The position numbers and the translations under genes were made by a program. Shown here piece by piece: positions 31,101 to 61,600 of a stretch of 64,000 nucleotides of DNA. The stretch's first letter is position 1, and each line of letters starts with the position of its first letter. The notes under the pieces were generated by a model that made no database searches, was not told the origin of the DNA, and saw only the letters and a list, made by a program, of their open reading frames with translations. Source of the DNA: Branchiostoma floridae (taxonomy: Eukaryota > Chordata > Leptocardii > Amphioxiformes > Branchiostomatidae); assembly GCF_000003815.2 (NCBI RefSeq), contig NC_049982.1, positions 20,015,139 to 20,079,138 on the forward strand, given 5' to 3'.

Positions 31101-33774
31101 CTCCCTCATCAAGGAGTTTAATTGTTCTTCTAATTCTTTCTCCTCATTTTTGCGACTGCGCGCTTTATTTTTAGAGTATTGAATACTAAGTGATCTTATT
31201 TCCATTTTAATCATCTCCCATTGTATACCAGGCTGTTGGATATCTTTTAGTTTGTCCTTGATATTAGTGAGTAGATCTGTCATTTCTTTATCAAAAGTTT
31301 GATCCTCTAACAAAGAGTTGTTTAAACGCCAAAATCCTGGCCCTCTCTTTTGATATCTAGGCGACTTGACTGTCATTATTACCGCCCTGTGGTCAGGGAC
31401 GGGCGCTACCTTAATGCTACATTCACTTAAGTTTACTAAATTGTAAGGTGCAAACCAGTAATCTAGCCTACATTTTATATTTTCATTTTGCCAAGTGTAT
31501 TGTCTAGTATTGGGGTTTTTTTCCCGCCATACATCAGCCAGATTAAAAGACTTTAATAGGCATTGCATTTCTTTGATTGCATAATTTTTGTCGTCAATGG
31601 GTCTTCCTCCTGTCTTGTCTAATTCTGTTAGGGAAATATTACAGTCACCGCCAATGATAACTGTCCCACTAGCGTTTTCTTGAGCTAGCTTGTGAATTTC
31701 TTTGAAGAATTTCACTTGTTCTGTCCTTTTGTTTGGTGAATAAAGGTTAATTAAACTTACGTCATTATCGTTTACTCTACCATTTACCATTATGTATCTA
31801 CCGTCTTGATCAAGAAGTGTCTGTTCTAAGTCTATATCTGCTTCAGGGTTAAAGAGCATCATTACTCCTTTCCCGTGAGCTGTGCCATGGCTAAAAACTA
31901 TTTTCCCGCCCCATTCATTAGCCCAAAGTTTTTCATTTTCTTTAGCCGAGAAAGATTCCTGTAAAAAGGCTATGTCTGTTTTCTGGTTATGTATCCATCT
32001 AAATATTTTTTGTCGTTTCAGTTTGTTATTTAAACCTCTAACATTTAAGGAGATAAACGTTAATTTGGACGTTAGAGAGTTTGATGAAGACATGTTAAAA
32101 GAGTTATAACAAAAAAAAATATCTAAGCATTAACAACATTTGTTTTGAATGCTTGTCATGGAAATTTTTGTTGAAATGTAAAAAAATACGAAAGAATACC
32201 ATTGATAATATGTTGAAGGTGAACAATGTGTTACTAAGTGATCATCTTAGCTTTAAAATGAATACACCTATCAAATACTGTTCTTATGGAGGTGCAGTTG
32301 ACATTGCATCCTTCAGTATGCTTCCCCTTACTTTCCATGCTCTGCTTCTCAATCAATATGGCATGCTGAACCTTAACCAGATGTGCTTACCAACCTTTAC
32401 CTGAAAACTGTCAGTCAGAGAGTGGAGTTTTACAAATATCTATATAAAAGCACCCATTCAATATAAAAGTTTCTAGGAGCTTGTCAGGTTTGTGCCACAA
32501 AATAGCCCAAAGTCTAGATTCCACTCACTCTTCCTTCTTGCGGAGAGCCTCGTTAGTTTCCTCCAGTTGGACCTTCAAGTATTCAGTCTTACTGTCGCTC
32601 TCTTTAGTCGCATTATCTAGCTTCTTCTCCAGCAGCCCAATACGCACATTGGTCTCGCTCAACTCCTCGCTCTGGTACAAGGAAACAGAAGCAAAAGATG
32701 ATTACAGCATGACTACATGGTGTATGACTGTTATACACAGGAAGGTTGATGAAATGTAGGGTAGGGAAATGTTCTGGGCTTAAAGGTTTGATAAACATCA
32801 TTGTAGACCTGCCCTTGTCACTGATTGAACTTGTCGTCCAACTCCAAGTGCACTAAAAAGTATTTAATCTACAGTGATCTAGTAGCTGAATAAGCATTAT
32901 CTTGGCATTCTGTTTGCCTCAGATGCAAGTGGCAGCAAAGATGTTTTTCAAGCCTCTTCAAATCTGCACTGCATTTCCTGCACTGAAAATTGAGTTTATA
33001 TGAATTTCATTTACAAACCATATGTACAACTCCTGAATCTTTTGCTGTAATATGCAATTATTCAAACTTTCAGTGCAGTAATGCTGTGTTAACACTGACA
33101 CATCTCCAGTAGGAATGGAGATGTGAGATGAGTAGGGTTTAGTACAGGTTGTGGATACCATCCGGGAGAAAGTGGAGCGAGAGGTCAGGCACTGCAGCCG
33201 TGTGCGTAAGACAGCCACTTCATCACACTGGGCAGGCACAAGGTTAGAGACAATGAACAGCAACATTAGAGAGATGTGCTACTATAATGCATTTACCTTG
33301 TATAGTGCATTAGACAGTACTCTATTAGCTAGGAAGAGAAGCCAAGTTGTCCAAAGTGACAGAGACATAAGGTACAATACACTGAAGTACAACTTTGAAT
33401 ACATTTACCTGATTGAGGAAAAATGGTGAAAAAAAATTTTTCTTCTCAGATTTCAAAAGATCCTTCATTTTGAATAACTTGAGCAGAGTAAACACGCACA
33501 AGTAGTCAGAAATGCTGGAAGTCTGTCAGAAATAGGGCATCTCACATGTAGTACTAAAAGGAGCTTTTATCTCCTTGATACTACAGATCTACACAGACAT
33601 CTACAGACCCTATCAGCAGGGCCACACATATGGGAATAACCAAACCTTGATTTTCAGGGACTTCTTGAGTTCCCGGATGACTGTCTCCCTGTCCTCCAGC
33701 TTCAGACCCATGCCCTCTGAGTCCAGGATCTCCCCCTTTACCTTTGTCGCTCGGATCGCCACCGGTGGTTGGGG
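22149..33774 (-). CDS. DCTN1: DCTN1 coiled coil 2 and C-terminal exons
   Basis: Exons 33646-33774, 32529-32671, 27948-28129, 27457-27489 (optional, 33 nt), 26562-26644, 26295-26366, 25761-25919, 23425-23482, 23022-23113, 22620-22715 and 22149-22277. Landmarks: [71 protein letters not shown] and the last residues REIHSKFIS then TGA. CC2 contributes to Arp1-filament and shoulder contacts in dynactin. A possible extra exon lies at 33159-33227. The L1-like insertion fills the intron 28130-32528, and the LTR-like element lies in 23483-25760. Confidence 0.94.
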
Positions 33775-39700: not shown

Positions 39701-42700
39701 AGAACTTGCTTGGAGCCAGAAAGACCTAGCAATTTAGTAGCAAAGGCCCTTTGTTTTACCAAATAGTCCTCTGATCATCAAATATTAACTAGTCTTCCTT
39801 TTTATTGGAAAAAATTATGTAAGAAATTCTAATTGACTATAAATCTGGTAACAAACATCAACATCTTGATTACAATGTATGGCAGGAAGCAGTCATACAT
39901 GTGCCTATACTCGATACTGTACATTCCTACAAAATGTATTTCTACCAAACCAGTGCATTCCAACAGAAGCCTGGCACTTAAAGTCAAGGCAGTGTGGTTA
40001 AAGCCCATGCTCTGTGCAATGCCCAGGAGATATGGCAAATCTGGTGCATGGTGAAGAGACAGATGGTGACAGTAATAGGATGACAGCAATGCCACTTTTA
40101 TAATTTCCTAAAGAATAGCTTCACACTTAAAAGTCCCTGATACAATGATAACCATCTAATGCACAGTCTGATACACTGATGTCTATGTGTTAATGTTACA
40201 AAATCACTCTCAGTCTGATGGTTTCTTTTGCCATTTTTGTTGCTCCATACATCCAATATTTGCCTAAAATCAGGCAATTATCCCTTAATATCAATAATGC
40301 TGCAGGATGCCTCAGGAATTAGTAATCTATGGAACAAAATGAAATACAATATTTCTTAGAATTCACTGGGATTTCCTGTTTCCATCTGTGTTAATAAAAA
40401 TATAATCATTTATCATGTACTTTTCCACTAGCCTCAAAAATGCTGGATACTAAAACTGCAGGCCTGGGTAAATAAATAAGGAATCCATCTTCATGCTTTC
40501 ACAGGCATACCAAGGTGCATAGTGGGAAAAAGTCTCCATGGGGAGAGGGGGGGGGATAGTCTAGTACCTTGGGCCTTTTCTGAGCTTCCAGATAGTCTCT
40601 AGCAGCCTGTAGAGAATGTGGTAAGATGTAAAATCCTCCACTTCACTAGGAAAAAAATAACTACTAGGTGACAACAAGAAAACTAGGTGACTGTGCCTTT
40701 CCTCTTTCTTGCTGAAGAATGCAGTGTTGGGTGATGCCAGAAATGTGACCCCAACTAAAAGCCTCAGATTCCTGATTATCAACTACTTACATATATGGTT
40801 AACAATTGCTGCAGTCCGGTAACAAAGGAAGTCAAAAGGTGTTAGTTTAAACTCAGATTTTAACAATGTCATACTGTATGTTGAGGCTATCCAGGATCTG
40901 TAGGCTCTTTATGTATGCTATTCCCATGTCTCAAAGTTTTAGCTGCTGTATGACACAGCTAGCTGATTTCAAAATTAATACTTGATTTTTATTGGGAGGG
41001 GGAGCAGGGAGACATTGCTGTTGGCAGCAAAACATAAAATGCAAGAGAAAATACAACACTGAAACATCTTCCTTATGCAAACAATTGTGAAAGAGGAAAG
41101 GTGTCTCACTGGTAATTTGGTCAATTTGTAATATATTAAATAGACTATTAAGTTTAGAAGAATGCAACAAAGACAAGATGGTGCAAAGTAAGAAGACAGA
41201 ACACTCAGTCTGAATGCTCAGCATGGAAGAAAGAATGAAACAGAAACAAACAACCATACTCTGCAGAGCTTGTGAATGATAGAAGAACACAGCAAAGACT
41301 ACAAGTACATATATGGATCCACAACTATCAAGACTCTGCTGCACGTGTGTCAATCAATACATACCTGGTAGAAAGCAATAGCTTTGTTCAAGGCCTCCAT
41401 GGACACTGTTTCATCAAGCTGCAATGAAATCATCTATTGTCAGGTCTTGCTATGTTAAAAACATATAATACTAAGAAATAATCCCATGGACCTAATGATA
41501 AATCATAGTTTCTATTATTCCTTTGTATGATAGTGATAGAAGCAGTCTATTTGACTACTGGTATGTGTACACACTTCAGATACTTGAATACGGGTAGTTA
41601 AGAGAAAGCTATGTTCTTTACAACTTTCAATAAACCAACTCTAAAAAAACACACATCTAGCAATATGCAATTGCCAAAAAGCAAGAGTAAGTCAAATGTA
41701 CTTCAGTATACACATATAAATGTATAAGATGCGACCATTGTTACATGTAACGTTATGTGAATCTTACCAGGTGACATGTACTTAGCCCAGTGGGGCAATA
41801 ATGTGCAATAACGGTCTTCATTCATCAATATTAGTAAAATAAAGAAAAAAATCTATATGGCCCCTCTCTGGGGCAAGTTTGAGACAGAAAGTAGAAAGTT
41901 CATCTGGAGCTCCGTACCTGATCTTTCTTCAGCAGGTCGATGAGGTGATCCAGGGCCCTCTCATGCATGGCCATCTCTGGGTACAGCGTCCCCACCTTCA
42001 TGTACAGCTCCACAGAACACGAGTTCAGGGCTCTAGAACCAGACATAGGGACAACGGAAACTGTAACATTCTCAGTGCTAAGTAAAGATCTTCTGGATTC
42101 TTTCCCGTTATCAGTCAGGCAAAACGTGTCACCTTACTTGGTAGCCCCCCATAGAGAATGTCATCACTTGCACTGGCATGCACACCAGTCTAATTGTTTG
42201 TAAATATTCCTAGCCAAAGTCACTCAAGAGAGACTCCAGGATTCTATATCTCCCTGCTAAGGTTACCTTTCTGTACCACATCTATATTCAACATAAGCTT
42301 GGGCAGCAGACAGAAGGGTAAATGTCTAGCTTACTTGTGCCCAAACCCAACTTGGTCCCATGATGGGTAACGTGTTAAAACTTTCTTTCATAAAATGTAG
42401 AATTGTAGATTTGCAAACAATCACAAGATCATAGAAACTACTGTAAAACAAGACAACCTGTACATGTATTGTTCTTACTTGTCATATTTGTGCAGGATGG
42501 ACTGGAAGATGGCCAGTGAGTAGATGAGATGGTTGGCAAAACCCAGCTGTTCTCCGACGTGGCTGCGCACCACCTGCGCCCGGTCTAAACCACCCTGTGG
42601 GATCTCAAACTGCTGGCCACAAACACAGAAAAGGGAAAACTCCATTTAGCATGGTTTAATGACTGAGAGAAGCCAGGCAAATTTTATTCCACATTATTTG

Positions 42701-48700: not shown

Positions 48701-51700
48701 CAGAATAAGATAGTTGATGAGAAATTCACCAAGAGGAAGGTTTGGAGAGGTTTTATCGATTGTTCAATTCTGGCTGGATATACAATTGTACATGAAATGT
48801 ACAACTTCATTGTGTTGTCCTAACACACACGCTTCACTTGAAAATGTACATTTTTGGTCAGTAGTTATTTGTTGAAACATTCCATTACATCATGCATATG
48901 TACGCAAAATTATTCCAAGCAACAAAATTTATAGCAGATCCTTGTTAGCTTTTTCTATTTTATCAGCGCATATTCTACGACAACGAAAAACACAGGCACA
49001 AGCAGCTTTGCTCACAAGTAGCCTGTCATGTGTAAGAGATATTTGCTCTGATTGGTGGAATATAAAACAAAATCAAACATTCATCATGTCATTCACACAC
49101 AAAATTTTTGAAATACATGGGTCTGATTGTGATAAAAAGCCATTTCATTTGTTAAAGACTGCAGTATGCTTTCAAACTAGATGAATAAGCAATGCCAAGT
49201 GCCTAAAACATTCAGCAGTGTAGTTACTAGGTGCAGAATAAAACAGACGTACCAAACTCACTGCTGCGTGCCAACAAAATTTGTGCATTGCTAAGTCCCC
49301 AACTGAGTCAATACCTTCATTTCCTTGATGGTTTCATCCAAGTTACTAGATGTTGGGGATTTTTTGGACTTTTTAGTCTGCTGGTCGGAGTTTGCAGTCT
49401 TTGAAGTCTGGAACATCATGCAAGTCAGGCACAGTTGTTAGCATTAATTTGTAATCATCATCACCAGATGCTTTGTCAGCTTAGCTCTGGGTAGTTTTTC
49501 ACAGACAATTCAATCCACATATTAACCATATACAAGCACACATTAATATAACTCCAGAAATCCATGGACTGCAACATTCAAACTGTCAGACACATTACAT
49601 TTATCTACTTCATGCATTTTGTAAGTAGTAATAAATTTCATGGGTCAAGGCAACAAATTTCTCAAAAGACAAATTATAGCCCAAACTGATGCATAATACA
49701 AAACTGATGCAACGGGAGGTGCCCTAACATAAAACAGCTTTGACTGTTATGATATACCAGCTTTCTTCTGACAGTAAAATTGTGATTGAGTGGACTTCTC
49801 ATCTCATCTCATGTGGGGCTGTATCAAGAGCAATCCAGCTCATATTTTCTAATGCATGAAATGGGCCAAATGCATCAAATGTGGCGGCCCTGGTTACAAA
49901 ATCAAGAACACGACACTGCCAACATGAACAAAACTCATGTTAGGGCACCCCTCGATTGTCCAGCTCATGTACTCCCATATTGCTGAGTTCCCCTTATATT
50001 TATGGTGAGCCTGAGTAAAACTATAATGTACAATGTACATGACAGTAATGCCTTGTGTACAAACATTGACAATGGTACCAGCATTCATTTCTAACACGAT
50101 TTACATGTACGACATGAACAATCTGGGTAACATCTACGTGTATTCAAGACAAAGTGCATTTAAGTCACAGTTAGAAGAGGACACTCTATCAAGCTGAATA
50201 AGATGAGAGAAATTCCATAGTATGTGCATGTGCATATACAGAACAAAAATACAACCTGCCTACAAGATAAGGTTTAAGAAACATACTGGAGGCAGCTTTA
50301 AAATAACTTAAACAAAATGATGGTGTTTATGGCCACAACTGTAAAGGAGAAAACTGCAGAGGTGTCAGTGATTTGTGCAGATTGACTATCTACCTTAAGT
50401 TCAGTGGAGGATGCGCTCCTAGTTGGAGGCTGTGGGCAAGGGCAAAGTGTTAGCAAAGCCACTGAAATGATTTGACAATTAAAGAATTAAACATTGCAGA
50501 GGTCAATTATTATTCAATTTTTCAAACACTGTAATCTTCAGCATCTGCAAATATTAAGAAAGTCACTTGTACTGTTGCATAAAAAAGACAAAGAGTGAAA
50601 ACCTGAACCAGATTCAATATAACGCTTAGTTCAAATTTATCCGCTGGGTAACCTATATTCGTTGCTTTTAAAAACAGGGTGTTTGGGGATATCACGTCAA
50701 CGGACGTAGGTTTCAAATTGCAATATTTTCAAAATATTGCAGTTTTAAACTACCACCCGTCGGCATGATATGCCTAAATACCCTGTTTTGAAAAGCAACG
50801 GATATAGGTAACCCCACGGATAAAAGTGAACTAGCATTAACAGTGACAGTCACTGTGTATGAAGTTCAGACAACTACAAAAAAGTATTAGCTAAATGTAG
50901 ATTGCCTTCAACGTTTAGATGTAGGTAAAACTGGGAAGGAACCAAGAAGAGTTAGGAGTGGGATCTTGTAACTGATGAAATGGCAAGTCTGGAATCTGAC
51001 TCACTCCAAAGGTTTATAATGTTTTTCCTTTACAATACAAAGATTTTCTTTTTTATCTCTATTTTACATGACATGTGTACAATCTTAGTTTTCCTTTCAC
51101 CATTTCTTGAACCTTCTATGAAAAAGAAAAAGCTTAAGAGTCCAACTTATCTTTCCCTGACAGTGATAACAACAATTCCACCCATTTCCTGTCAACATGC
51201 ATATAAGATTTAAAATTGTGTAAATTCTAGGTTAGTGATAATTATGTTTAAGACCTTTAGTTATCACCCAGTTGAAACCAATACCATGCCACCACTAGGT
51301 TAGTTGGTTAAAACAGGCAAGCAGTCCTCCTAAATTGTGGTTAATAGTTATAATTACTAGGTTAGTATCAGATAATATTACATGGTTGTACCTTGGAGCT
51401 GGAAGATGGTGTTTTCCTTTGGGGTATGGACTACAAGGTAAGGGAAAGAATAAATGGGATGTCTATTACAAACAAATTACTAATTAAAAATAGATGAACT
51501 ATATTCACTAATGTTAGGTACTATAATAGAGTAAACATAGGGAAATATAAGGATTGAATATACTGTAAATGGTTCTAATCAACCTAAGGCCTAAGGGTGT
51601 CAGTGGCTAATCTCAACAGTGTCTGTTCTGGTAGTCTGTACTAAGACTAAGTTTGTAAAATTGTATGCATAACTGAACTGGAAAATCGTCACCCTACAAT

Positions 51701-54700
51701 TGATAATTACATACTATCAATACATTTTAAGAGGTGGTCAAGTCAACATTTTTGTATTAAAAACAACATCACCATCTTGTACAAGGTAACTATATCTGTC
51801 ATCTCTTTTTTCATTACATATTCTTTGTTCTAATAGCGAATTTCTGGAAAAAAACTCACAACCTCCATTCTCCCCCAAATCTTAAGAAAACATGATATCC
51901 GAATTCCCGTTCTTGCAAAATTCCAATTTAGATGTTTAAAAGTTACATTGTGAATATTATCATAATACTAGGTAACTCTTAATGTATGCCCTTGTAAGAT
52001 GTGATGTCATGTGTATGAAAAAAACAGGACATAACAATCATCAAACTAACAAATGTATGCCACAATGGACCAGCTTTTACTAATAAATTTTTCAAGTGTT
52101 CAATAAAAGGTCCGTCATGACGATGAAAAATAAAGCTTAAAGTCAAAATTGGGCTTTTGTACTTACAATACAGAAGAGTATACTTAATTGCATTACCCAC
52201 ATATGTTGAACATTTTAAGCTACATAATTTGAATCTCTTATCTGGCCTTTCTAACTGGACAGTCCAGAAGAGCCACACCCCTAGTTTGATGGGGCGGATG
52301 GTAGCTGGTATTTAGACACACAAACACAAACAACAAGCAGGTCAGTTTCCACAAGAAATAGTAAGCTTTAATTATGGTTCAAATTTTGGTACTAGTGAAA
52401 TCTAGAAGGAATGATTATATAAAGATAGAATGTTGCATGAAGGTACATGCAGACCTAATGCCTGTAATGGTACACAATATCTCAGCAGGACTATTACAAA
52501 TTTACATATATACAGCCAACACCTTGAGATGTGAGGAATAGCTACCATTGCTTAAGTTGACATTATATGTATGTGCACGATTACCGTTAACAAACTATAG
52601 CTACTCTATTTATCGATGAACTTTTCAAATCTGTAGTAAATAATCAAAACTAGGAAACTGACGTTCATCCATAAGCTGTTAGAGATTTAAATTTCATTGT
52701 TAGTTAAGCTACCTTTCTACACAGGCCTCCTTTTTATTTCTTCTCACCATACAAAGTCTGGAAGTTTACTCAGTTACTCTAAAACTAAATTAACCTATTT
52801 CTCCGATTGAATTGTCGAAAACATATCTTTATAGAATGGACATTATCCTGTTCAAACATTGAAGAAAATTGGCCCAAAAATTTAGCTGTAAAATGTTAAC
52901 AATATGTCTATATTACATTGAAACAAAGCCATCTATTCAAATATACTTGTACAATTACAAAAAGAACTTCCTCTTGTCCAGGCTACCATGTTAACAGATA
53001 CCTGGAGGGCAGTAGGAAAAACTTCCTTTCTACACATCCATGCAAAAGTCCTGTGCCTTTCCCTCAATGTCAACAAAATTGCTGTATTCCTCGAAATCGT
53101 GGATTTGCATCCAGTGTCGGATGACATTGAAGGCTGCCTGTAGCAGTTCTGGACTCGGTGCAGGGCATGGCGGATCTGTCTCATCATCAGACGTGTCAGT
53201 CTCGTTAGACGTCGTACTCCAAACCTCCATCACATCCTGGAGAATCTCTCCGGTATACTCTAGACCTGAATCAATATCTACAAACTGTTCAAATTCTTCA
53301 GCTGAAATCCCCTTTGGCGGTGCAACAGCATCTACTTCTGTAGTACTGTCTTGGCTAGGCGATGCAAACAAACTGCTCTTTTGGAAGCAATTTCTGATGG
53401 TTTCTGGTGAAACTTTCCTCCAGGCCTCCCTCACCATGTACAGTGCATCCAGGACGTTTGTCTTCTTTGCAAGGTTAGCTGCTGAATCAATGTCATTATT
53501 TCCTACTGTAATCAGGATACGTTTCAACAGCTGAGAACGGTACAATGCCTTGAAGTTACGGACAAGCGGTTGAACAATGGAAGTTGCATTAGCTGGCAGA
53601 AAGATGACCTGGATGTTGTCTAGGTAAATGTCGCTGAGATGGGCTGTGCTGCTGTTTAACTCTAAGATCAGAAGAATCTTCTTGCCTTTCTGCCCCATCT
53701 CACGGTCAGTTTTCACAATCCATTCCATGAAGATGTCAACAGTTATCCAACCCTTTGGGTTAGCATACCACGGCAGGGGAACTTTGCAGCCATGAAAACA
53801 CTTCGGGTTCTCACTGTGTCCTACAACTAAGGGTGTTAACTTGTCAGTCCCAGAGATATTGCAGGCAAACAACACACAGATGCTGTCCTTTGCACTGCCA
53901 GCAACTGTCTCCACATTGTCTGGCCATGCTCGGTACAGGAGACCTGTCCCTACACAGCTGTAGACACAGTCAGGCTCATAAGTTTGTATGATGGCTGCAA
54001 GCAGGTCCCTCAGCTCATCAGCAGCAGGCTGGGTGTCAGGGTCTTTCCCCTCCAAACGTGCTCTCCTAAATGAAATGTTGTGTCTGACCTTCCACCTGCT
54101 CAGCCAGCCATCAGTAGGTTTAAAGTCTGCTTCACCGATGCTCTCTGCCAATTCAAGGGCCTTTTCCATCAAAATGGAACCAGATAAAGGCACTGATTTT
54201 GCTTGTGCCATCTGGAACCACTCATAAAGAGCATCCTCCACTTTTTGGTTCTTCCCCACACAATTCCTCTTGCGATTGGGGTTCTTGTTAGCCATCCACT
54301 GCTGCATGATGGCTGCCCTGTTCTTGTAGGTTCTGCTGACCTGCGATGAGGAGCAGCCAAACGTCTTTGCAATCTCAGTCTGGGACATCTTTGGACCAGA
54401 TGTACAGTTAAGCATCTGGATGACCTTGACTTTGTCACCCAAGGTCAAGTCATTTCTTGTCTTCTCCTGTCTGGCATTTGACACGGTACAGTCAGGATCA
54501 CGGTTCTCCTGGAGGGAGGGTAGCATGCCTTTCACCCCATTATCAGCTGACTGTGTGCTTACATCTTCAATGTTTGCATCTTTCTCACCAGCATCTTTCT
54601 CGACTGCAGTTTCATCATCTCCATCTTCCTCTAGCTCATCTGCACCTTCCTCGTCTACATCTCTATTGCCTGGATTTTCCTCGTCTACATCTCTGTTGCC

Positions 54701-57700
54701 TGGATTTTCCTCGTCTACATCTCTGTTGCCTGGATTTTCCTCGCCTACATCTCTGTTGCCTGGATTTTCCTCGTCTACATCTATGTTGCCTGGATTTTCC
54801 TCGTCTATATCTCTGTCGAGTGATTCTTCCTTCACTACAGCTTTCTCATCTGCATCTTCCCCAACTACATGTTTCTCATCACTACCTCCCCCTTCTAAAC
54901 GTGCTCTCTTGAATGAAATGTTGTGTCTTTCCTTCCATCTGCCCAACCAGCCAACAGAAGGTACAAAATCTGGCTCACCAATGCTCTCTGCTAGTTCCTT
55001 GGCCTTATCCATGACAGCAGGACCAGACAAAGGTGTTGAATTATCTTGTGCATTCTGGAACCACTGAAAAAGGGCGGCCTCGACTTTCTGGTTCTTCCCT
55101 TCTCGCTTCCTCTTTTGGTTGGGGTTGTTGTTTCCCTTCCACTGCTGCATGATGGCTGCCCTGTTCTTGTAGGTCCTGCTGACCTGCGATGGGGAGCAGC
55201 CAAACGTCTTTGCAATCTCAGTCTGGGACATCTTTGGGCCGCTGTCAAGCATCTGGATGACCTTGACTTTGTTAGCCAAGGTCAGATCGTTTCTTCTCTT
55301 CTCTGGTGTGGTTCTTCGTACGGGGACCATGGTTGGGAAGCCATCATGCGTGAACTATGAAATAATGAGACAGTAGACAGAGAGAACCCCATTTTTATTG
55401 GGCACTGTACATGTACATGCAGGTCGTCTGAGAAATATAGGTCATTGCTGCAAATTGTCTGTCTTAAATGTAGATTAAATACCCAGAACCAAATGCCACT
55501 TTTGATGGATAGAAATCTGAACACATCCTATTATCCCATGTCTGCATGCACTACCCACACATTCAAAATTGATGAGAAAGTACCTTCCTGTTTAGGATTT
55601 GGAATTTCTATACAAATAATCAAGTTGAAAGAGTAATGCAATCAAGTGGAGTCTACTGCATTTGTCCTTGACATTGGCCATTAATTTTCAGGACATTGTG
55701 CAAATATCTTATTCTTAGTTGGGACTTGCAAGGCAGAAAGAAAAAAAAAGAACATTTGTGTGTCAGCGCTAATACTATAGCATTTTGATGTAGTAAATAG
55801 ATTAAAATTCATCAAAATGCCATGTATACAAAATATATTACCAGCACTGATGCAGTGATGGAAGCAAACATGATGACAATTTTTGTAAGGAACTTAAAAT
55901 TTCGGAAAATAAATGCAATGAAACAGAATGTTGTCATTGTTTAAAATTCTAGATGACTTAAACTCCTTATACCTGCTTGCACAGTACCTGTACCATTCCT
56001 GTCAACCTCAACCACCTCAGTGATATATCTATGTACCTGCACCAGTTTGGTTTCATTTCTAAGTGTGTATGTTAAGTAATAACATGATTTTGCATGATCT
56101 AACCTTGAATCGGAAGGGTTGTCTCTACAGGTGAAAGGTAGGAGGAAAGGAGGCAGAGAAAAAGAGCAGAGCAGACATGATAGAATGTGCCTGCTCATTG
56201 CCAAAAGTCTTTCAATAACAAACATGGAAAAGTGGTGTTTGACAAATCAGAAAATTTCAATTTTGAATTTGACTTCAGAAGAATTTGATATATTTTCATA
56301 TGAATTGATACAGATAGATGAATTGCAGAAACTGGAATCTCATTTTTCTTCTCTGTCACTAAATGTTGGAATAGCTACAATTTGTGTAATATGTTAAATA
56401 AGTAAAGTACCTTATGCTAGCCCAGTCCTTTTGGCAATGCCATGCAGTTACATGTTCCATACATGTAGATTACAGCCTAATGAGATGTCAACCTTTCTAC
56501 TTAATGTGTATTAAAACCCACAGAAAAACTAATTATTTGGATTAAAACTAATATATAAATCATAAGTGGAATGTTTAAGAAAATAAATGAGAAGAAGATG
56601 ATGAAGTTAAAAAAAATATCATATCTATGTATGTACTTAAAAACAGGGGTTGAATGTTCATGACCTCTGACCCAATGAAAGAGTTCCAGTCATTGCATGT
56701 ATCTGCATGAAGCTGTATTCATAAATTTCTGACTTTAATAAACCAAGAAATAAATTCAACTATTTCCTACACTCTTTTTTAAGCTTTGACTATATGCTTT
56801 TTCTTTTTTAACAAACTAACAAACTACAGGATTTCTTAAATCATAATGTTGAATCTTATAAAAAGTATACTATAAAAAGTCTGTCGGAAATAGAGATAGA
56901 ACATGCATTAGGTCAGTTTGGCACCTATGAATATGATAGAAAAGTATGTGGAATGCCAGAACAAATGACAATATCTTCACACTGTCATGCACAAACTAAT
57001 GCTACAATTCATTTCCTAGGGACACTCGCTTATACTTGAGAAGGAGAAAACCTTTTTACATCAGAAGGTGTAGTCTATACAGAACATGCATTTTAGCTAA
57101 CATGGCTGCATATCACCATCATAACTAATTTCTAAAATAAGCAAATCAAGCTTCGATGGTGACCAGATACAAGTCTTCTAAAAGATTTGACACAGTTATT
57201 GCTGTTGCACACTGATGTGAACCTTTCAGCTTCACAGCCTAGATCAGTAATAGATACCATGAATGTAGAATGTATGGGCACCATAAGCTTATCCTACTGT
57301 CGAATTTGTCCTTTTGTGTATTGTACACCTTTGCACCTTCAGACAACACACTACAGTACAACACAAGAGTAAGAGAAGTGTAGCCTACCTCAAGATTCTC
57401 CCGGCTCCCCCGACTGGCTCTGGGAGTTTCAAAGGCTGAAATGGACATCGAAAGTTTTGTGTTACAACAGACAGTGAAACACAAGTTTTTTTAACATTAC
57501 TGAAACTTCAAACTAGCTTCACTACTAGTTAGAAGTAGTAAACTGAAGCTTAAAACTACTAGGCCACAGCTATTACAAATATAACAGTACTATGACTTTC
57601 TTTTGGTCTTAAAATATCTTATTAGTAATCATACATTTGTATTACAGAGTGTAACGAATTAAGTGATCTTGCAGAATGATGTATCCTGTCATTTCAGTGG

Positions 57701-59800
57701 TTACTGATGAGTACAGTACGTAGCAGAAGCAATATGAGTATTCATAGCTGAACATCAAAATGGAACACATGATGATAGCAGTTCACGTCACACAGAGCAG
57801 TGGTACAGAAGTGCAGGTAATTTTACATGACAAGTGAGACGGGTGCAGAGCAAGCAGATGTCATGTGGCTTTTGAGTGCAAACTACTGTCCTATACTCTG
57901 TTCCTGCAGGGTGAAAATGCTTATCTGTCTGAAACACATGAAATTCAATGCACTTTACAAATAAGACCATGCATGTATGCTCATCTAACCATTATCCACT
58001 ACTTCCTTCTTACACAGCATGTTATAAAGAGCTGTTACATAAGCATAAGCACATGCCCAGCAACAGTACAGAGGAAACCATAGCCGCCACCATAGCACAC
58101 TTAAAATACAAGCGATGCCACAACACAGCCATTGCCATGGTAACAAACCTGTGGATCTTGGTCTTGGTGCTGGAGGGAAGGAGGGAGTGAGGGAGAGAGC
58201 AGGTGGATCAGTCCAGATCAGTTTATTCATGTATAGAGGTAACAAGCAGAGCCAATGCACAGCAAGGGGTTTCTACTATCTACAACTACAGGTACTCATG
58301 CTACTGCTACTGCTACAGCACCTATGGGATGGGTAAGTCATGATTGAGCATTAGCAAAGCTGGAATAGGAACATGAGAACATCTTACAATTTAATAGATT
58401 TTAATAGATAAATGGTACTCAGTAAATTAAGGCACTGTGAGTCTACAAATTTACAGTGTCATTAACCTAGTTAGAAGCATTAAACTTTTAAAGATTCAAG
58501 ATGAAACATGTATATCCTACTACATATCAGTATGAAACAGGAAAGTGTCAATGGTAGGGTAATAACTTTGTGAAAAAGACAGCAAAGTCAACATTTAAAT
58601 ACAGATTTCACAACACAAACATCTAAGTACATGTACAATGTAATGGGACAGGAAAGACAACATCCTTTTGTCACTTGTGATAAACGGAATATTTACATGG
58701 GAAACCTTCTTCAAAGTTCCAGGACATAAATATTACATTAGTTATAACATAAGAGAAATAAACTTATAATATTGATTTAGTCTTGAGCTATTTTGATATA
58801 ATCTATCCTACTGTAGCATACCTCTGGCCCCCGGGGTTCGTTTGGAGACAGATTTTTCCTCCTGCGAAGGTGTGCTGGGTGTGCTGGCAGATCCCCCAGA
58901 CTGGTCCTCTAACACGTTCAACTACACATGTCGGGTAAACAACAACAGTTCATCAGTCATGATAAAACATTAGGAAATGCAGCCAATCAACATCATGCAT
59001 CTGAGCAAACCCTGCAAATGTATTAATGATCTTTTTACATATCCACATCTTTTATCACAGATTTATAGAAGATAATCATTTCTGACTTGTACAAAAGCAG
59101 AAAAGGATGAACTGCCTACATTTGAACATGCACCTCATGTAGCTCCTTAATCTATACTATGATTTCCTTTACAAAGTTAACTTGCGATAAGACACGATGT
59201 TGACAACAATGATGTAATGAGGCATGAAGAATCAGTATGTAGTATCATTCAAATATATAATGACTGTATCTGTATTTATATAGCAGGTATGACTGTCTTT
59301 CAGTGTAATGAATGATCATCTGCCGAACAGAGAAAACGCACAACACTAACAGCTTTTAAGAATGGACTGATGCAATAGCACTGTTTGCAGGACGTTGCTA
59401 CTTTTTCCCTAAGTTACGTTACGTGTATAGTTCCCAATTACTGTATGTTGTCAGTTTCTGTATGTGTCCAGGGACTCCTGAAAAGCAAACTGTAGTCTGA
59501 GTGATTTACCCTGGTAAAATGAAATAAAATGAAATAAAATGAAATGAAACCTGTCACACCTGACCTAAATGTAACTTTACATACCTGAGACTGCCTGACA
59601 AAGATGCCATAGCCGTCATCGCAGTTGAAATACTTCTTCCCTTGGACTGTGCCGTTGTTCTTTCCTTTCTTCTCGTCCAGAACCACGCCTACCCACTTCC
59701 CGCTGGCAAACATGGTCGTTCCGACGTACGCCACCGTCCCCACCAGGCCCTTCCCCGCCACCTCCACGCGCATCCCAACTTTCATTGGTCGGTCTGCCAT
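22149..59800 (-). CDS. DCTN1: DCTN1, dynactin subunit 1 (p150Glued), complete coding span
   Basis: About 40 exons recovered on the minus strand follow the full order of vertebrate p150Glued. The order is CAP-Gly, basic/Ser region, coiled coil 1, intercoiled domain, coiled coil 2, C-terminal region. All junctions are GT-AG and phase-compatible. The coding total including optional exons is 4080 nt (1359 residues); without seven optional exons it is about 1269, close to human p150 (1278). The protein is the large arm of dynactin: it binds microtubules and dynein intermediate chain and makes dynein processive on cargo such as endosomes. The gene is 37.7 kb because of transposon-filled introns. 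Exon groups are listed separately. Optional exons are inferred from phase symmetry and absence from the vertebrate alignment I recall, not from transcripts. Confidence 0.95.
23610..25458. mobile_element. Non-autonomous element with 468-bp direct terminal repeats (LTR-like)
   Basis: Two direct repeats, 23610-24077 and 24991-25458, differ by one base that I can see (A/G near 23775). Each starts GGGATCCGCC and ends GCGGATACCC, so each repeat also has short inverted tips. The whole unit is flanked by TTGCG at 23605-23609 and 25459-25463, a 5-bp target duplication. Each repeat contains GGGGTATAAAGTTGG, a TATA-like box. The 913-bp interior has no gag/pol frame. Together this fits a very young non-autonomous LTR element (LARD/TRIM type), but the usual TG...CA ends are absent. 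It lies in a DCTN1 intron. Confidence 0.7.
28305..32135 (-). mobile_element. L1/Tx1-like non-LTR retrotransposon insertion, ORF2 only
   Basis: A 3831-bp insertion lies in the same orientation as DCTN1. It ends in a poly(A) run (plus-strand T tract to about 28322) with a minus-strand AATAAA at 28328-28333. The perfect 15-bp duplication ACATTTGTTTTGAAT lies at 28290-28304 and 32136-32150. The 5' end is only 42 nt before the ORF2 start, so ORF1 and any 5' promoter are missing. The intact frame and perfect duplication point to a recent insertion. Confidence 0.93.
28416..32093 (-). CDS. ORF2p: AP endonuclease plus reverse transcriptase, 1225 residues, intact
   Basis: An uninterrupted frame starts [20 protein letters not shown]. 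The apurinic-type endonuclease is visible in [25 protein letters not shown] (about 148) and VPDHRAVI (about 233). RT motifs follow: [93 protein letters not shown] and the catalytic MYADDM (about 705). Near residue 1122 there is a Cys/His cluster [17 protein letters not shown], the zf-RVT-type C-terminus of L1/Tx1 elements. All catalytic blocks look preserved, so the protein could be active if transcribed. Exact clade (L1 versus Tx1-like) is not resolved. Confidence 0.93.
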   Translation of the reverse strand: MSSSNSLTSKLTFISLNVRGLNNKLKRQKIFRWIHNQKTDIAFLQESFSAKENEKLWANEWGGKIVFSHGTAHGKGVMMLFNPEADIDLEQTLLDQDGRYIMVNGRVNDNDVSLINLYSPNKRTEQVKFFKEIHKLAQENASGTVIIGGDCNISLTELDKTGGRPIDDKNYAIKEMQCLLKSFNLADVWREKNPNTRQYTWQNENIKCRLDYWFAPYNLVNLSECSIKVAPVPDHRAVIMTVKSPRYQKRGPGFWRLNNSLLEDQTFDKEMTDLLTNIKDKLKDIQQPGIQWEMIKMEIRSLSIQYSKNKARSRKNEEKELEEQLNSLMRETDEFDDPEKQKLICETKERLESIQTHKTKGAIIRSRCNWNEQGEKSTKYFFNLEKRNYKEKTISSLTLEDGSITTDPKTILLEEAEYYKKLYTSSYPDMKESTYFLDNDDVKKLNTEQKTSCDGEMKEVELRKALQAMSKNKNKSPGCDGITIEFYIKYWNLLKDYLLNTINDAYHNNLLPISLRRGVIRLIPKKGLDTSNLDNWRPISLLNVDYKIVSKALTLRIERLLPFLIHEDQTGFVKQRYIGTNIRRIYDTIDYYDKKKKPGLLMFLDFKKAYDSIEHSFILKVLETVNFGHNMIKWVKLLYTDITSCVLNNGYISPWFSVHRGVRQGDPLSSSLFIICIEMLASAVRADINIKGLQVYGRMQKLSMYADDMTSLLLDIPSALKLLETLNLFKDCSGLDLNYGKTEAMWIGSNKDRQDKPLPIRWPDGPIKALGAHFGHDRHRCYKEDLDKNYTKMVQACSIWKQRNLTLIGRILIVKTIGISKLIYICSVMHVPPQFVKQVNEYIFKYIWREKPPKVKMKTLIGKKCQGGLKMIDFNVMNKALKAIWIKRFVMDPSKEKEHLFARWGGFLIFRCNYATSQLDLNDMPLFYKDVLVAWEEVIGYEPKTHRQICSQVLWNNRFILVKNAPIFYKIWIDAGIIYLNDLLYEDGSFLTNKDLHNLYGLTMDSRQILNYNSIKAAIPKNWKDNIKNNGKKCASKTIIEYTERIHPLTTTCKQIYDTLIEKQVVPPTRENEIIRKIGIDNIEKVYTTAFIVTKETNLQYFQYKIIHHFLPTNSWLKKTNLVKTDRCNNCKEKHTIVHLFVYCKEVKIFWKQFCLWWRSYENQDIVLDENLIVYGVCCHRTASTTLIYYILLAKYCIYLCYVKNMKPNFAHFKNRVNNSIEIAL
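33159..33227 (-). other. DCTN1: Possible additional DCTN1 cassette exon
   Basis: An open 69-nt segment has acceptor TGCCTGCCCAG and donor ATG|GTATCC, both phase 0. It encodes [20 protein letters not shown] then SRM. It would fit in frame between the exons ending SLKIK and starting SEELSE. It is absent from the vertebrate protein as I recall it, and the donor is mediocre. Confidence 0.35.
35298..35505. mobile_element. Palindromic MITE, copy A
   Basis: An approximately 208-bp inverted repeat: an outer arm with TATTCACCTTTATCCACTGG-like sequence, CAGG(C/G)(A/T)ATTTAG, and a central hairpin (TGGTTTCAAACTGCAATAT against its complement around 35370-35425). The end mirrors as AAAGGTGAACTAG. It shares family with copy B at 50626-50833. 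It lies in DCTN1 intron 33775-36939. Confidence 0.75.
36940..43419 (-). CDS. DCTN1: DCTN1 intercoiled domain exons
   Basis: Exons 43334-43419, 43053-43115 (acidic insert [20 protein letters not shown]), 42479-42612, 41918-42032, 41365-41418, 40568-40606 ([13 protein letters not shown]), 39133-39348, 38757-38813, 38026-38128, 37462-37561 and 36940-37033. Landmarks: [78 protein letters not shown] and [15 protein letters not shown]. This is the compact helical intercoiled domain between CC1 and CC2. The 63-nt and 39-nt exons interrupt the alignment to vertebrate p150 and are phase-0 symmetric, so they are probably cassettes. Confidence 0.92.
37215..37320. repeat. Near-perfect hairpin, 50-bp arms, 6-bp loop
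   Basis: The left arm 37215-37264 and right arm 37271-37320 are inverse with about five mismatches around the loop AATATC. The core AGGAAATCCCATTGGTAGAA is exact in both. It sits 141 bp downstream (transcript sense) of DCTN1 exon 37462-37561. It could be a MITE remnant or a transcribed hairpin. Confidence 0.85.
43791..47539 (-). CDS. DCTN1: DCTN1 coiled coil 1 exons
   Basis: Exons 47339-47539, 46927-46998, 46358-46562, 45890-45968, 45193-45352, 44546-44752, 44327-44416, 44047-44163 and 43791-43890. Hallmarks are [89 protein letters not shown] and [15 protein letters not shown]. Heptad Leu spacing and high Glu/Lys content define the long CC1 dimer. In p150 this segment binds dynein intermediate chain (CC1B) and is autoinhibited by CC1A. 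The exon 47339-47539 opens with three STPV/STPL repeats that replace the vertebrate Ser/Pro linker. Confidence 0.93.
48576..58921 (-). CDS. DCTN1: DCTN1 basic/Ser-Pro-rich linker exons (several optional)
   Basis: Exons 58822-58921 ([20 protein letters not shown]...), 58149-58169 (21-nt micro-exon, APRPRST) and 57389-57435 ([16 protein letters not shown]) are well supported. Next come 56104-56124 (RQPFRFK, weak), 51392-51430 ([13 protein letters not shown]), 50394-50429 ([12 protein letters not shown]), 49315-49407 ([16 protein letters not shown]...) and 48576-48614 ([13 protein letters not shown]). The last five are multiples of three with phase-0 ends. This matches the basic region of vertebrate p150, where tiny alternatively spliced exons tune microtubule affinity (known for human DCTN1). 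The sequence is low complexity, rich in Ser, Pro, Lys and Arg. Intron 51431-56103 holds the Tigger-derived ORF; intron 49408-50393 has nothing recognised. Confidence 0.7.
50626..50833. mobile_element. Palindromic MITE, copy B
   Basis: It has the same architecture as copy A: TAGTTCAAATTTATCCGCTG, GGTAACCTATATTCGTTGC, AAACAGGGTGTTTGG, then a central AATATT palindrome. It closes with ACCCTGTTTTGAAAAGCAAC, GGATATAGGTAACCCC and AAAGTGAACTA. It is about 208 bp, non-coding, in the DCTN1 intron between exons 50394-50429 and 49315-49407's upstream neighbours. Confidence 0.8.
53030..55330 (-). CDS. Pogo/Tigger-derived protein with duplicated CENP-B-type DNA-binding region and degenerate DDE domain
   Basis: This intronless 766-residue frame lies in a DCTN1 intron, same strand. 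Module 1 (about 12-147) has a psq/CENP-B N HTH ([20 protein letters not shown], then [20 protein letters not shown]) followed by a Tc5-type HTH ([35 protein letters not shown]). Residues 150-280 are acidic with a ten-residue repeat ([10 protein letters not shown]). Module 2 (about 290-428) repeats module 1 with a two-residue insertion. Residues 450-610 resemble Tigger DDE_1 ([79 protein letters not shown]). The three expected Asp positions read V/G, E and V, so transposition activity is unlikely. The start [16 protein letters not shown] has a good CAACCATGG context. No terminal inverted repeats were found. Likely a domesticated DNA-binding protein, like CENPB, JRK and TIGD genes. Confidence 0.88.
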   Translation of the reverse strand: MVPVRRTTPEKRRNDLTLANKVKVIQMLDSGPKMSQTEIAKTFGCSPSQVSRTYKNRAAIMQQWKGNNNPNQKRKREGKNQKVEAALFQWFQNAQDNSTPLSGPAVMDKAKELAESIGEPDFVPSVGWLGRWKERHNISFKRARLEGGGSDEKHVVGEDADEKAVVKEESLDRDIDEENPGNIDVDEENPGNRDVGEENPGNRDVDEENPGNRDVDEENPGNRDVDEEGADELEEDGDDETAVEKDAGEKDANIEDVSTQSADNGVKGMLPSLQENRDPDCTVSNARQEKTRNDLTLGDKVKVIQMLNCTSGPKMSQTEIAKTFGCSSSQVSRTYKNRAAIMQQWMANKNPNRKRNCVGKNQKVEDALYEWFQMAQAKSVPLSGSILMEKALELAESIGEADFKPTDGWLSRWKVRHNISFRRARLEGKDPDTQPAADELRDLLAAIIQTYEPDCVYSCVGTGLLYRAWPDNVETVAGSAKDSICVLFACNISGTDKLTPLVVGHSENPKCFHGCKVPLPWYANPKGWITVDIFMEWIVKTDREMGQKGKKILLILELNSSTAHLSDIYLDNIQVIFLPANATSIVQPLVRNFKALYRSQLLKRILITVGNNDIDSAANLAKKTNVLDALYMVREAWRKVSPETIRNCFQKSSLFASPSQDSTTEVDAVAPPKGISAEEFEQFVDIDSGLEYTGEILQDVMEVWSTTSNETDTSDDETDPPCPAPSPELLQAAFNVIRHWMQIHDFEEYSNFVDIEGKAQDFCMDV
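54651..54816 (-). repeat. 30-bp coding minisatellite in the Tigger-derived ORF
   Basis: About five and a half tandem 30-bp units keep the frame and encode [10 protein letters not shown] with minor changes (NID, GEE). Units start near 54651, 54681, 54711, 54741, 54771 and 54801. It forms part of the acidic linker between the two DNA-binding modules. Confidence 0.92.
59585..59800 (-). CDS. DCTN1: DCTN1 first coding exon: CAP-Gly domain
   Basis: One 72-codon exon starts [19 protein letters not shown] and ends [10 protein letters not shown], so the whole CAP-Gly domain is a single exon. It includes the GTVAYVG strand, the aromatic FASGKWVGV and the binding loop [16 protein letters not shown]-Gly domains bind the C-terminal EEY/F of tubulin and EB proteins. 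The canonical GKNDG loop reads GKNNG here. The start is the first ATG after a 5' UTR acceptor at about 59818/59819. The longer vertebrate N-terminus before the CAP-Gly domain is absent in this form. Confidence 0.96.
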
Positions 59801-61600
59801 GACTGTAGATTAGGCACTGAAAACAGAATTCACAATGAACGAATGATACAGAATGGATTGGAATGTATTTTTCCTCCATTGTCAGTGCTTGTCCATGATT
59901 ATACTCTTACTACAGTGTACAACTTACCAAGTTGCTTACAAGTAGGCAAACTTCACTTTTCTTCCAATAATCAGGTTTCCAAATACTGTGTGCACCCAAA
60001 ATTGGAGCTGTGCACCTAATATTTTGCTGTGGTGGGTGCACCGTGCAATACTAGTAGGTGTACATGCATATGTACATGTACTGGTATTTATGTCTGGAAA
60101 TGTACATCAAGGTACATTACTTTACAGTAGCATATTTTTGACATTCAGAAGTATCAAAGTAAGACAACTTTTGTTATATCTAATAGTTATTTAGATATCT
60201 ATAGAATTTTGATTTATTTCTTTCATGGTGTGCACTCAAATTCTTTTCTGCACAAAAGTTTTTCGGTTTAGGCGCACCAGTGCACCTATTCCCAAAATTG
60301 AACTTCAAGGGGAACAGGTTTTCTGTGCGTTAAAAATCTGCGTGCGCGTTAAAAATCTGTGCGTTAAAAAATCAAGTTGTACATTGAGAAATTCTTAGGC
60401 AGAAAAATGTGACCTCATTATATGATTTTTAACTCAGTTACCTGAATTTTTCATTTGAAATGCCCCTAATTTTTAGGTCCCTTGGGAATAGGTTAATTTG
60501 CATATCCAGAAGATTTCAAAAGCGCAAGTTTTAACGCGCAAATTGTAACACGCACAAAACCCCAACCCATTTCAAGCCCCAAAGTTGTTTTGTTCTCAGC
60601 ATGCACCTTTGTCTATTGTGCAAGTTGGTGTATGTCAGTCAATGTCCTCCAACATGATATTCCTTGATTTTACTGCTACCTACTGCTGCAGAACTTAATT
60701 TGGTGGATAAAGCAAAACACTGGAAAGCTATAGTTTTCTTTCATGATGTATGAAGAATAAATTGCTGCTGCTACATGGTGCAGTTGCTATGGTGCATCAA
60801 AAAGTGCTGATGATTACAAAGGCTCAATCCAGAAACCCTGGCACTAATGTGCATAAGCTGAGACCATCATGCTGTTATAATTGGCCATTCACTGATAAGA
60901 ATCAATGCAAACGAGATCAGTTCTAATTCAATTAGATCTTAGCTCAGCTCAGGCTGACAAAAGAATGCAATCTTCATATTGTAGTAATAGTATTACCAGG
61001 CAGAGCATCCAATTGTGCCAAATATGCTCTAAAACTACCACAGTCATATTTTTTCTGAATGGGTCACTTATAACGTCCTTGGTCACTAAATGCAATCCAG
61101 GAGCTCAAAGTTTGCTTTGAACAATCACGTTACAATGTTTCTTTTTTATGTTGCATGAATACAAGTAAACTCAACAGACTTTTATGGCACCATATTTTTA
61201 GATCATTGGTAATGATGACAAGGTCAATGATTTGTTGAAAGTTCCTTTATTCCAACAGCATATATAACAATGTTATTTTCCAGCCATACACATTTACTGC
61301 AATTAACATAATTTGCATCCTTGATTTGCATGGCATGTTTATTTATTCATGATGATGATTAGGATTTGTGATTAAATGAAAAATATTTTGCATAGATGAA
61401 CTGTAATATCCTACACAAAACATCAATCATGCCAATGTTGTGCTCTGAATCCTAAGTTAACGTTACATGTCCTGTAAAAAATGACATCATCTCATCAATA
61501 ATCGGAGATTCTACCTACGCCTGACGTAGCACCGGTCCGACAAAAATACGGACAATGAGACCATTTATGAAGGATCTGAGAAAACAGAGTGCTTTCTTAC
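59801..61600 (-). other. DCTN1: DCTN1 5' UTR remainder and first intron
   Basis: The 5' UTR of the CAP-Gly exon begins after an acceptor at about 59818/59819 (TTCTGTTTTCAG). The rest is probably intron up to a non-coding first exon at 61601. A degraded repeat with GTGCACC and three GCGTTAAAAATC copies lies at about 60000-60560. No coding exon was seen. Confidence 0.5.

Follow-up and report, generated by a model that had tools for sequence, protein, structure and literature searches.

Introduction

Domestication of pogo/Tigger transposons is well described in vertebrates (PMC7386202), and CENPB-type transcription factors are described in the lancelets Branchiostoma belcheri and B. floridae and in other invertebrates (PMC10027918); these papers, like the one on SETMAR below, are cited for part of their text. 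Here we describe a 766-codon open reading frame of B. floridae, which encodes a pogo/Tigger-type protein with two DNA-binding modules and a seemingly dead active site. The frame is carried by a decayed transposon within an intron of DCTN1, in a stretch of 64,000 nucleotides (C4:20015139-20079138, hereafter the window) from an assembly of 513,431,437 bases in 431 contigs. Heterozygosity in lancelets amounts to 3.2-4.2% (PMC12500494). Feature coordinates are those of the window.

CENP-B and TIGD3-5 combine a DNA-binding part of CENP-B_N and HTH_Tnp_Tc5 with a degenerate DDE domain, as the window protein does, and their catalytic triads are unrecognisable, whereas those of JRK, JRKL and POGZ are well conserved (PMC7386202). 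They differ from the window protein in being conserved across species, and the cited part of that paper mentions neither a duplicated module nor terminal repeats for them. JRK, JRKL and TIGD2 have the same three Pfam domains but a conserved or partly conserved triad, and the same part of the paper mentions no duplicated module for these either (PMC7386202). Like the window protein, the lancelet CENPB-type factors are DNA-binding proteins of the CENP-B type that derive from transposons; the cited part of the work says nothing of two modules, and the 766-codon gene may or may not be one of them (PMC10027918). The literature searched (titles and beginnings of abstracts) yielded neither a two-module pogo protein nor this gene, which is not proof of their absence in print.

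A further comparison is SETMAR, a protein of primates derived from Hsmar1. The ratio of nonsynonymous to synonymous change (KA/KS) is 0.1 in its DNA-binding region and 0.7 in its catalytic region, and it occupies scattered Hsmar1 ends in vivo, thousands of sites that include miniature elements (6,334 repeats; binding by chromatin immunoprecipitation with exonuclease, ChIP-exo; PMC6326780). In the features given there, the window protein is similar: a DNA-binding domain that appears constrained, a catalytic domain that appears to drift, an altered active site, and many ancestral ends in the genome, including those of miniature elements. SETMAR differs in that it derives from a mariner and not a pogo element, is fused to a SET methylase, has known expression and binding, and has no duplicated CENP-B-type module.

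Results

Two DNA-binding modules and an altered active site in one frame

The frame is unbroken at 53030-55330 on the minus strand, with an in-frame stop 8 codons upstream of its ATG. Pfam finds two CENP-B_N + HTH_Tnp_Tc5 modules and one DDE_1 domain on its protein, the domains required of a pogo/Tigger protein:

53030..55330, minus strand: 766-codon open reading frame, its ATG in a strong, Kozak-like context (CAACCATGG)
54890..55300, minus strand: DNA-binding module 1 (CENP-B_N + HTH_Tnp_Tc5), residues 11-147
54464..54889, minus strand: acidic linker with a repeated unit, residues 148-289
54047..54463, minus strand: DNA-binding module 2, residues 290-428
53384..53890, minus strand: DDE_1 domain as delimited by the Pfam match, residues 481-649, the first catalytic position lying just ahead of it

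Module 2 provides the match to 1hlv, the CENP-B DNA-binding domain (E 9.5e-17 for the protein), and module 1 the match to the CENP-B entry 1bw6. A 30-nt tandem repeat at 54647-54816 (5.7 copies, 95% match) runs in frame through part of the acidic linker; that its length varies among individuals is a guess. A preliminary description, made from the letters of the window, had already read one unbroken 766-codon frame with two DNA-binding modules and an acidic repeat linker. As an observation it holds in part: the frame, the modules, the motifs and the position in an intron recur in our analysis, while the details of the triad and the inverted repeats had to be revised. No CENP-B C-terminal dimerisation domain was present among the best 25 of 38 Pfam rows, with no search aimed at such a domain.

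The closest relative with an intact triad, the locus L002, keeps NCDETG, LLLDNCTAH and IQPLDQG (DD30D by hand count). Alignment to L002 gives the following changes in the window protein:

53951..53953, minus strand: V460 in place of the first catalytic D (SCVGTG against NCDETG)
53660..53662, minus strand: E557 in place of the second catalytic D, with two inserted residues after it (against LLLDNCTAH)
53561..53566, minus strand: junction L589/V590, marking the deletion of DQGI and with it of the third catalytic D (PLVRNF against PLDQGIIRNF)

The DDxD triad that a pogo/Tigger transposase requires is absent, and with catalytic residues changed at three of three positions relative to L002 the active site is, by alignment, dead. 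The motifs CVGTG, LILELN and PLVRNF read as in the preliminary description, which took all three acidic residues as lost or changed; the second position, D to E, nevertheless stays acidic, and the third residue is deleted and not substituted. The same alignment contains four internal insertions or deletions (-5, -2, +2 and -4 residues) and two edge gaps from piece boundaries. As such changes, seen in a protein alignment of two open frames, are in frame by construction, they were dropped as separate evidence. AlphaFold2 models were poor both for the whole protein without relatives (mean predicted local distance difference test, pLDDT, 44) and for the DDE region with 10 relatives (41), so that no fold was compared and the retained DDE fold is taken solely from Pfam and the sequence alignment.

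Duplication of the module and selection

Modules 1 and 2 are identical at 106 of 137 aligned residues (83% at the DNA level), and in trees of six modules they are sisters, with a support of 98 for nucleotides and of 68 for protein. Their grouping places the duplication after the split from the relatives sampled. A home-made module profile, applied to 56 loci, found one module each at 14 other places, that of L020 being split into two broken pieces, and two modules only here; most of the loci were taken from matches to the 766-codon protein or to DDE_1 along with ~1.5 kb of flank at either end, a sample in which unrelated or distant second modules are missed.

The comparison of the two modules indicates purifying selection. 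The Nei-Gojobori method (NG86) gave a synonymous divergence (dS) of 0.47, a nonsynonymous divergence (dN) of 0.14 and a ratio of 0.29 (bootstrap 0.16-0.53), and a codon model gave a ratio (omega) of 0.31 on both post-duplication branches against 0.08 elsewhere, rejecting a value of 1 (twice the log-likelihood difference, 2dlnL, 16.9). These between-module values of 0.29-0.31 are compatible with the suggestion in the preliminary description of selection on DNA binding.

For the DDE domain, we counted changes unique to the window protein or to L002. Where the outgroups L005 and L006 agree, the window protein has 25 and L002 has 6 (119 sites, p 0.0009); the counts are 32 against 11 with L005 as single outgroup and 30 against 13 with L006. 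Faster evolution of the window DDE domain than of that of L002 is supported by these comparisons; codon models of the domain hit bounds or were saturated at synonymous sites and were not used. Unique changes in the two modules number 6 against 4 and 7 against 6, equal rates that are compatible with kept DNA binding, the difference between DDE domain and modules being not proven.

Ends of the element

Paired terminal repeats delimit the element:

52171..55658, minus strand: whole decayed pogo/Tigger element carrying the gene, 3,488 bp
52171..52198, plus strand: relic of the left terminal inverted repeat, differing from the widened terminus pattern at 3 positions and preceded by TA at 52169-52170
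55631..55658, minus strand: right terminal inverted repeat relic, a 1-mismatch match to the terminus pattern, with CA (plus strand) where TA is expected

The left arm and the reverse complement of the right arm are identical at 22 of 28 positions, and both start with CAG. None of 400 shuffles reached 22/28 among CAG-anchored pairs in the flanks, at each of three flank lengths; this anchor is post hoc, the pair having been chosen for its CAG start beside TA. An ungapped scan without this anchor scored the pair at 20/25, which 3 of 8 shuffles equalled. In 16-nt windows the best pair (15/16), AT-rich and located elsewhere, beat all 8 shuffles (maximum 14), and a general inverted-repeat scan did not have the terminal pair among the 25 of 37 shown.

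Two further observations agree with the post hoc pair, namely the L002 family boundary and the genome-wide count of termini given below, and together with these checks the pair sets the element length. L002 and its second copy L004 have a common left boundary, TA followed by CAGTAGAAGCCAGCTATTTGCAATTCGC; in the left end of L002, CTATTTGCAA and CTAGTTGCAA lie 32 bp apart by eye. Within the 6 kb read, no right end was seen for these two. The right arm of the window element agrees with the L002 terminus at 19 of 28 positions. The terminal inverted repeats with CAG start and TA duplications that mark pogo/Tigger elements are present here in decayed form, with TA on one side only. The preliminary description had assigned a Tigger/pogo origin and seen no visible inverted repeats; the latter gives way to the decayed pair, while a pogo/Tigger transposon origin of the element is supported, judging from domains and ends.

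A genome-wide family of termini

The pattern TACAGTAGANTCCNSTTRATTGCATKAC with at most 3 mismatches matched the genome 939 times (452 + 487), against once (1 + 0) for the reversed control. It was written from the right arm of the window element, which is among its 1-mismatch matches, and one other terminus, the other matches being independent of the window. A SETMAR-like action presupposes numerous ancestral terminal repeats scattered over the genome, and termini of this type are present in such numbers. We read 30 of the 939 places, taken non-randomly from the listed matches with 0-2 mismatches: 21 had an opposite terminus, 20 of them with spans of 155-191 bp (eight of exactly 178 bp, TAs included) and one with 502 bp, and at nine there was none in the stretch read. 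The short spans, seen at 20 of the 30 places, represent a family of miniature transposons ~178 bp long, which have ends of the pogo type and carry subterminal copies of the motif given below.

Over these 30 places, a second copy of [AT]TAA[CT]TGCA occurred 7 times at +32 in direct and 11 times at +33 in inverted orientation, other offsets (15, 34, 50, 96, 106) being seen 1-3 times each; the copies of the terminus share ancestry, and the 18 cases are therefore not independent. The 766-codon protein may bind the terminus type CAGTAGAANCCNSTTAATTGCAYNAC. A more specific reading, in which the doubled modules would act as a two-headed end-reader, a single protein molecule gripping both (W)TAAYTGCA motifs 32-33 bp apart (about three helical turns) at the ends of the large miniature family, we regard as distinctly unlikely; the second motif at +32 that would be expected in the window element's own ends has no clear copy in either arm by eye.

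Copy number and relatives

Of 79 candidate places in the 513-Mb assembly, 59 were scored, and among these only the window gave a full-length match to the 766-codon protein. Searches with the two non-coding parts of the element, using a DNA search that skips very common words, likewise matched this place alone. Over this protein match and both non-coding parts, no near-identical second copy of the element was found; many such copies with inverted repeats, according to the preliminary description, would have pointed to an ordinary transposon copy. The multiple related copies of the same element that are a hallmark of pogo/Tigger transposons are absent here, and the hallmark of a domesticated gene, a single copy with an intact frame, is present.

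The next best scored place is L002, 58% identical over residues 290-649. The L002/L004 family resembles the window element in its left end, TA-CAGTAGAAGCC, and in a shared 5' non-coding block, and differs in its single module, its intact triad and its two copies, which are 99.6% identical over 1,665 bp. L009/L010, a relic of this family whose DNA shares 86-88% identity with L002, is interrupted: two stops fall within its module match, and its module and DDE pieces are in different frames.

Among further relatives, L008/L025 (G000:C6:8520128-8520502, minus strand) has a 292-aa frame with one HTH_Tnp_Tc5 match and a QKVITQFF box, and the 8 kb read there gave no significant DDE match. It has a 5' block and C-terminal region in common with the window element; the C-terminal region of the 766-codon protein is kept there at 59% over 39 residues. 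Other open helix-turn-helix (HTH) proteins without a DDE_1 match are L014, L017 and L019. L007/L030 (G000:C15:1353156-1354268, minus strand) is a Tigger-type frame of 427 aa from stop to stop with a replaced triad (MEETG, LFLQQ, PMQQ) and 43 unique DDE changes against 14 in L006 (outgroup L005), another candidate for a domesticated or dying gene; an L007-related copy in two frames, L011/L015/L032 (C15:1389009-1390119), lies ~36 kb off.

The pogo transposase carries a PCNA-type box. A similar motif, Qxx[ILMV]xxFF at the C-terminus, resembling the PCNA-interacting box, was seen in 4 of 11 relatives' loci (L005, L006, L025 and L019), whose frames have it as Qxx[IM]xxFF directly ahead of the stop; neither the window protein nor its 3' flank showed one. 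Loss of the box was dropped as a sign of domestication, for the closest family (L022, L023, L024) also has none there.

Genomic setting

The frame lies within an intron of DCTN1, on the strand of that gene (minus), as the preliminary description had placed it: a CAP_GLY exon at 59438-59809 and a Dynactin exon at 41900-42133 flank it, both on the minus strand, and minus-strand coiled-coil exons match Dynactin subunit 1 in PDB. Two further features belong to the element:

55363..55410, minus strand: conserved 5' non-coding block (CAATAAAAATGGGG...CTACTGTCTCATTA), ~48 nt, 33-80 nt upstream of the ATG
52733..52738, minus strand: AATAAA hexamer ~290 nt beyond the stop codon, a consensus match only

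The 5' block aligns to the 5' regions of L008/L025 (score 23) and L002 (score 21), scores that none of 200 shuffles reached, and is a possible core promoter of transposon origin. The 3' non-coding part aligned to the same two relatives no better than shuffles did (33/60 and 34/60 reached the score). Elsewhere in the window we noted two frames of the long interspersed nuclear element (LINE) type, one at 28416-32129 on the minus strand (1237 aa from stop to stop, endonuclease and reverse transcriptase, RT) and one at 2292-4013 on the plus strand (573 aa with RT), and a near-palindrome outside the element at 50627-50833, with 103-nt arms, 81% complementary and 1 nt apart.

Expected decay of a neutral frame

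The terminal arms have diverged by 0.25 (Jukes-Cantor, JC; 95% 0.09-0.59). With half of this value per lineage and substitutions only, a neutral frame of this kind is expected to gain 9.6 stops, and none of 2000 simulations stayed free of stops. The window modules are open at 62-64% DNA identity to L002, yet the L009/L010 relic is broken at 86-88%, a comparison that is loose because divergence from L002 includes the time as an active element.

Discussion

On balance, we consider it fairly probable that an old pogo/Tigger insertion in a DCTN1 intron, after doubling of its module and loss of its active site, was kept as a host DNA-binding protein. The transposase gene duplicated its own DNA-binding module in this lineage and lost the active site; the 766-codon protein would be made in the host and would occupy CAGTAGAANCCNSTTAATTGCAYNAC-type ends at hundreds of places, regulating or silencing them and affecting loci close to the miniature elements. 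Two modules would give stronger or paired-site binding. The action would be akin to that of SETMAR, with a constrained DNA-binding domain on dispersed ancestral ends, without the SET domain. Host co-option is in our view likely, not established: with terminal inverted repeats (TIRs) present, the rule of Gao et al. (PMC7386202) keeps the gene from being filed as an established domesticated gene. The preliminary description's interpretation is in this sense partly upheld, with origin, dead site, two modules and purifying selection between them standing, no near-identical copy found, and the supposed absence of inverted repeats falling.

Several observations weigh against co-option. Under the rule of Gao et al., a TIR or target site duplication (TSD) on one or both sides marks a transposon and a domesticated gene has neither on either side, while the window element has recognisable TIRs on both sides and TA on one (PMC7386202, as far as cited here). 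Selection between the modules may partly stem from the active life of the transposon; on single branches, omega was 0.70 and 0.87, neither distinguishable from 1 and both above the background of ~0.1. With L007 as outgroup, the DDE counts of 17 against 12 do not differ significantly. The direct contrast in rate between DDE domain and modules is not significant (Fisher 0.22, 0.13). Towards the lower end of the wide limits of repeat divergence, neutral frames stay stop-free in 2.65% of cases at 0.04 and in 0.8% at 0.06 per lineage, and the frame was chosen from a genome with 57 DDE_1 matches.

Some of these points recur in the alternative that survives best, an ordinary transposon fossil, in which a rare two-module copy died recently, its frame stays open by chance and the triad changes are decay. 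In its favour, the element retains terminal repeats and a TA on one side, the genome harbours related pogo/Tigger families, among them the one with the two nearly identical copies noted above, and simulated neutral frames remain free of stops in about 1-3% of cases when repeat divergence is set close to its lower limit. We nonetheless judge this alternative unlikely, given that no near-identical copy was found, that the triad is lost at three of three sites, that the central estimate of divergence predicts the 9.6 stops given above, and that in the closest family a relic has already lost its open frame.

The element may also be dead and selfish at once, encoding a transposition inhibitor that binds the ends, dampens an active transposase and is itself moved in trans. 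In P elements, the internally deleted KP form inhibits transposition. The decayed ends share their type with hundreds of other termini and the genome contains other open HTH proteins without a DDE_1 match (L014, L017 and L019), both of which would fit such a repressor; the missing second copy, in contrast, gives no sign of recent movement, and ends mismatched at 6 of 28 positions with one TA lost do not favour it, so that we hold it quite improbable. A role confined to that of an exonised DCTN1 segment or of regulatory intron sequence is very improbable for the frame: it does lie on the DCTN1 strand within a DCTN1 intron, but starts with its own ATG in a strong context, is separated from upstream sequence by an in-frame stop 8 codons away, and has a conserved 5' block of its own.

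If co-option is the true history, the lancelet, in which a dead transposase with doubled modules coexists with hundreds of candidate sites, would offer a direct test of how such an enzyme changes into a regulator connected to the mobile elements it once served. Should the two-headed reading hold as well, a transposase would have doubled its DNA-binding module to match a doubled site at the ends of its relatives, and the host would have gained a regulator or silencer for which hundreds of paired sites were already in place.

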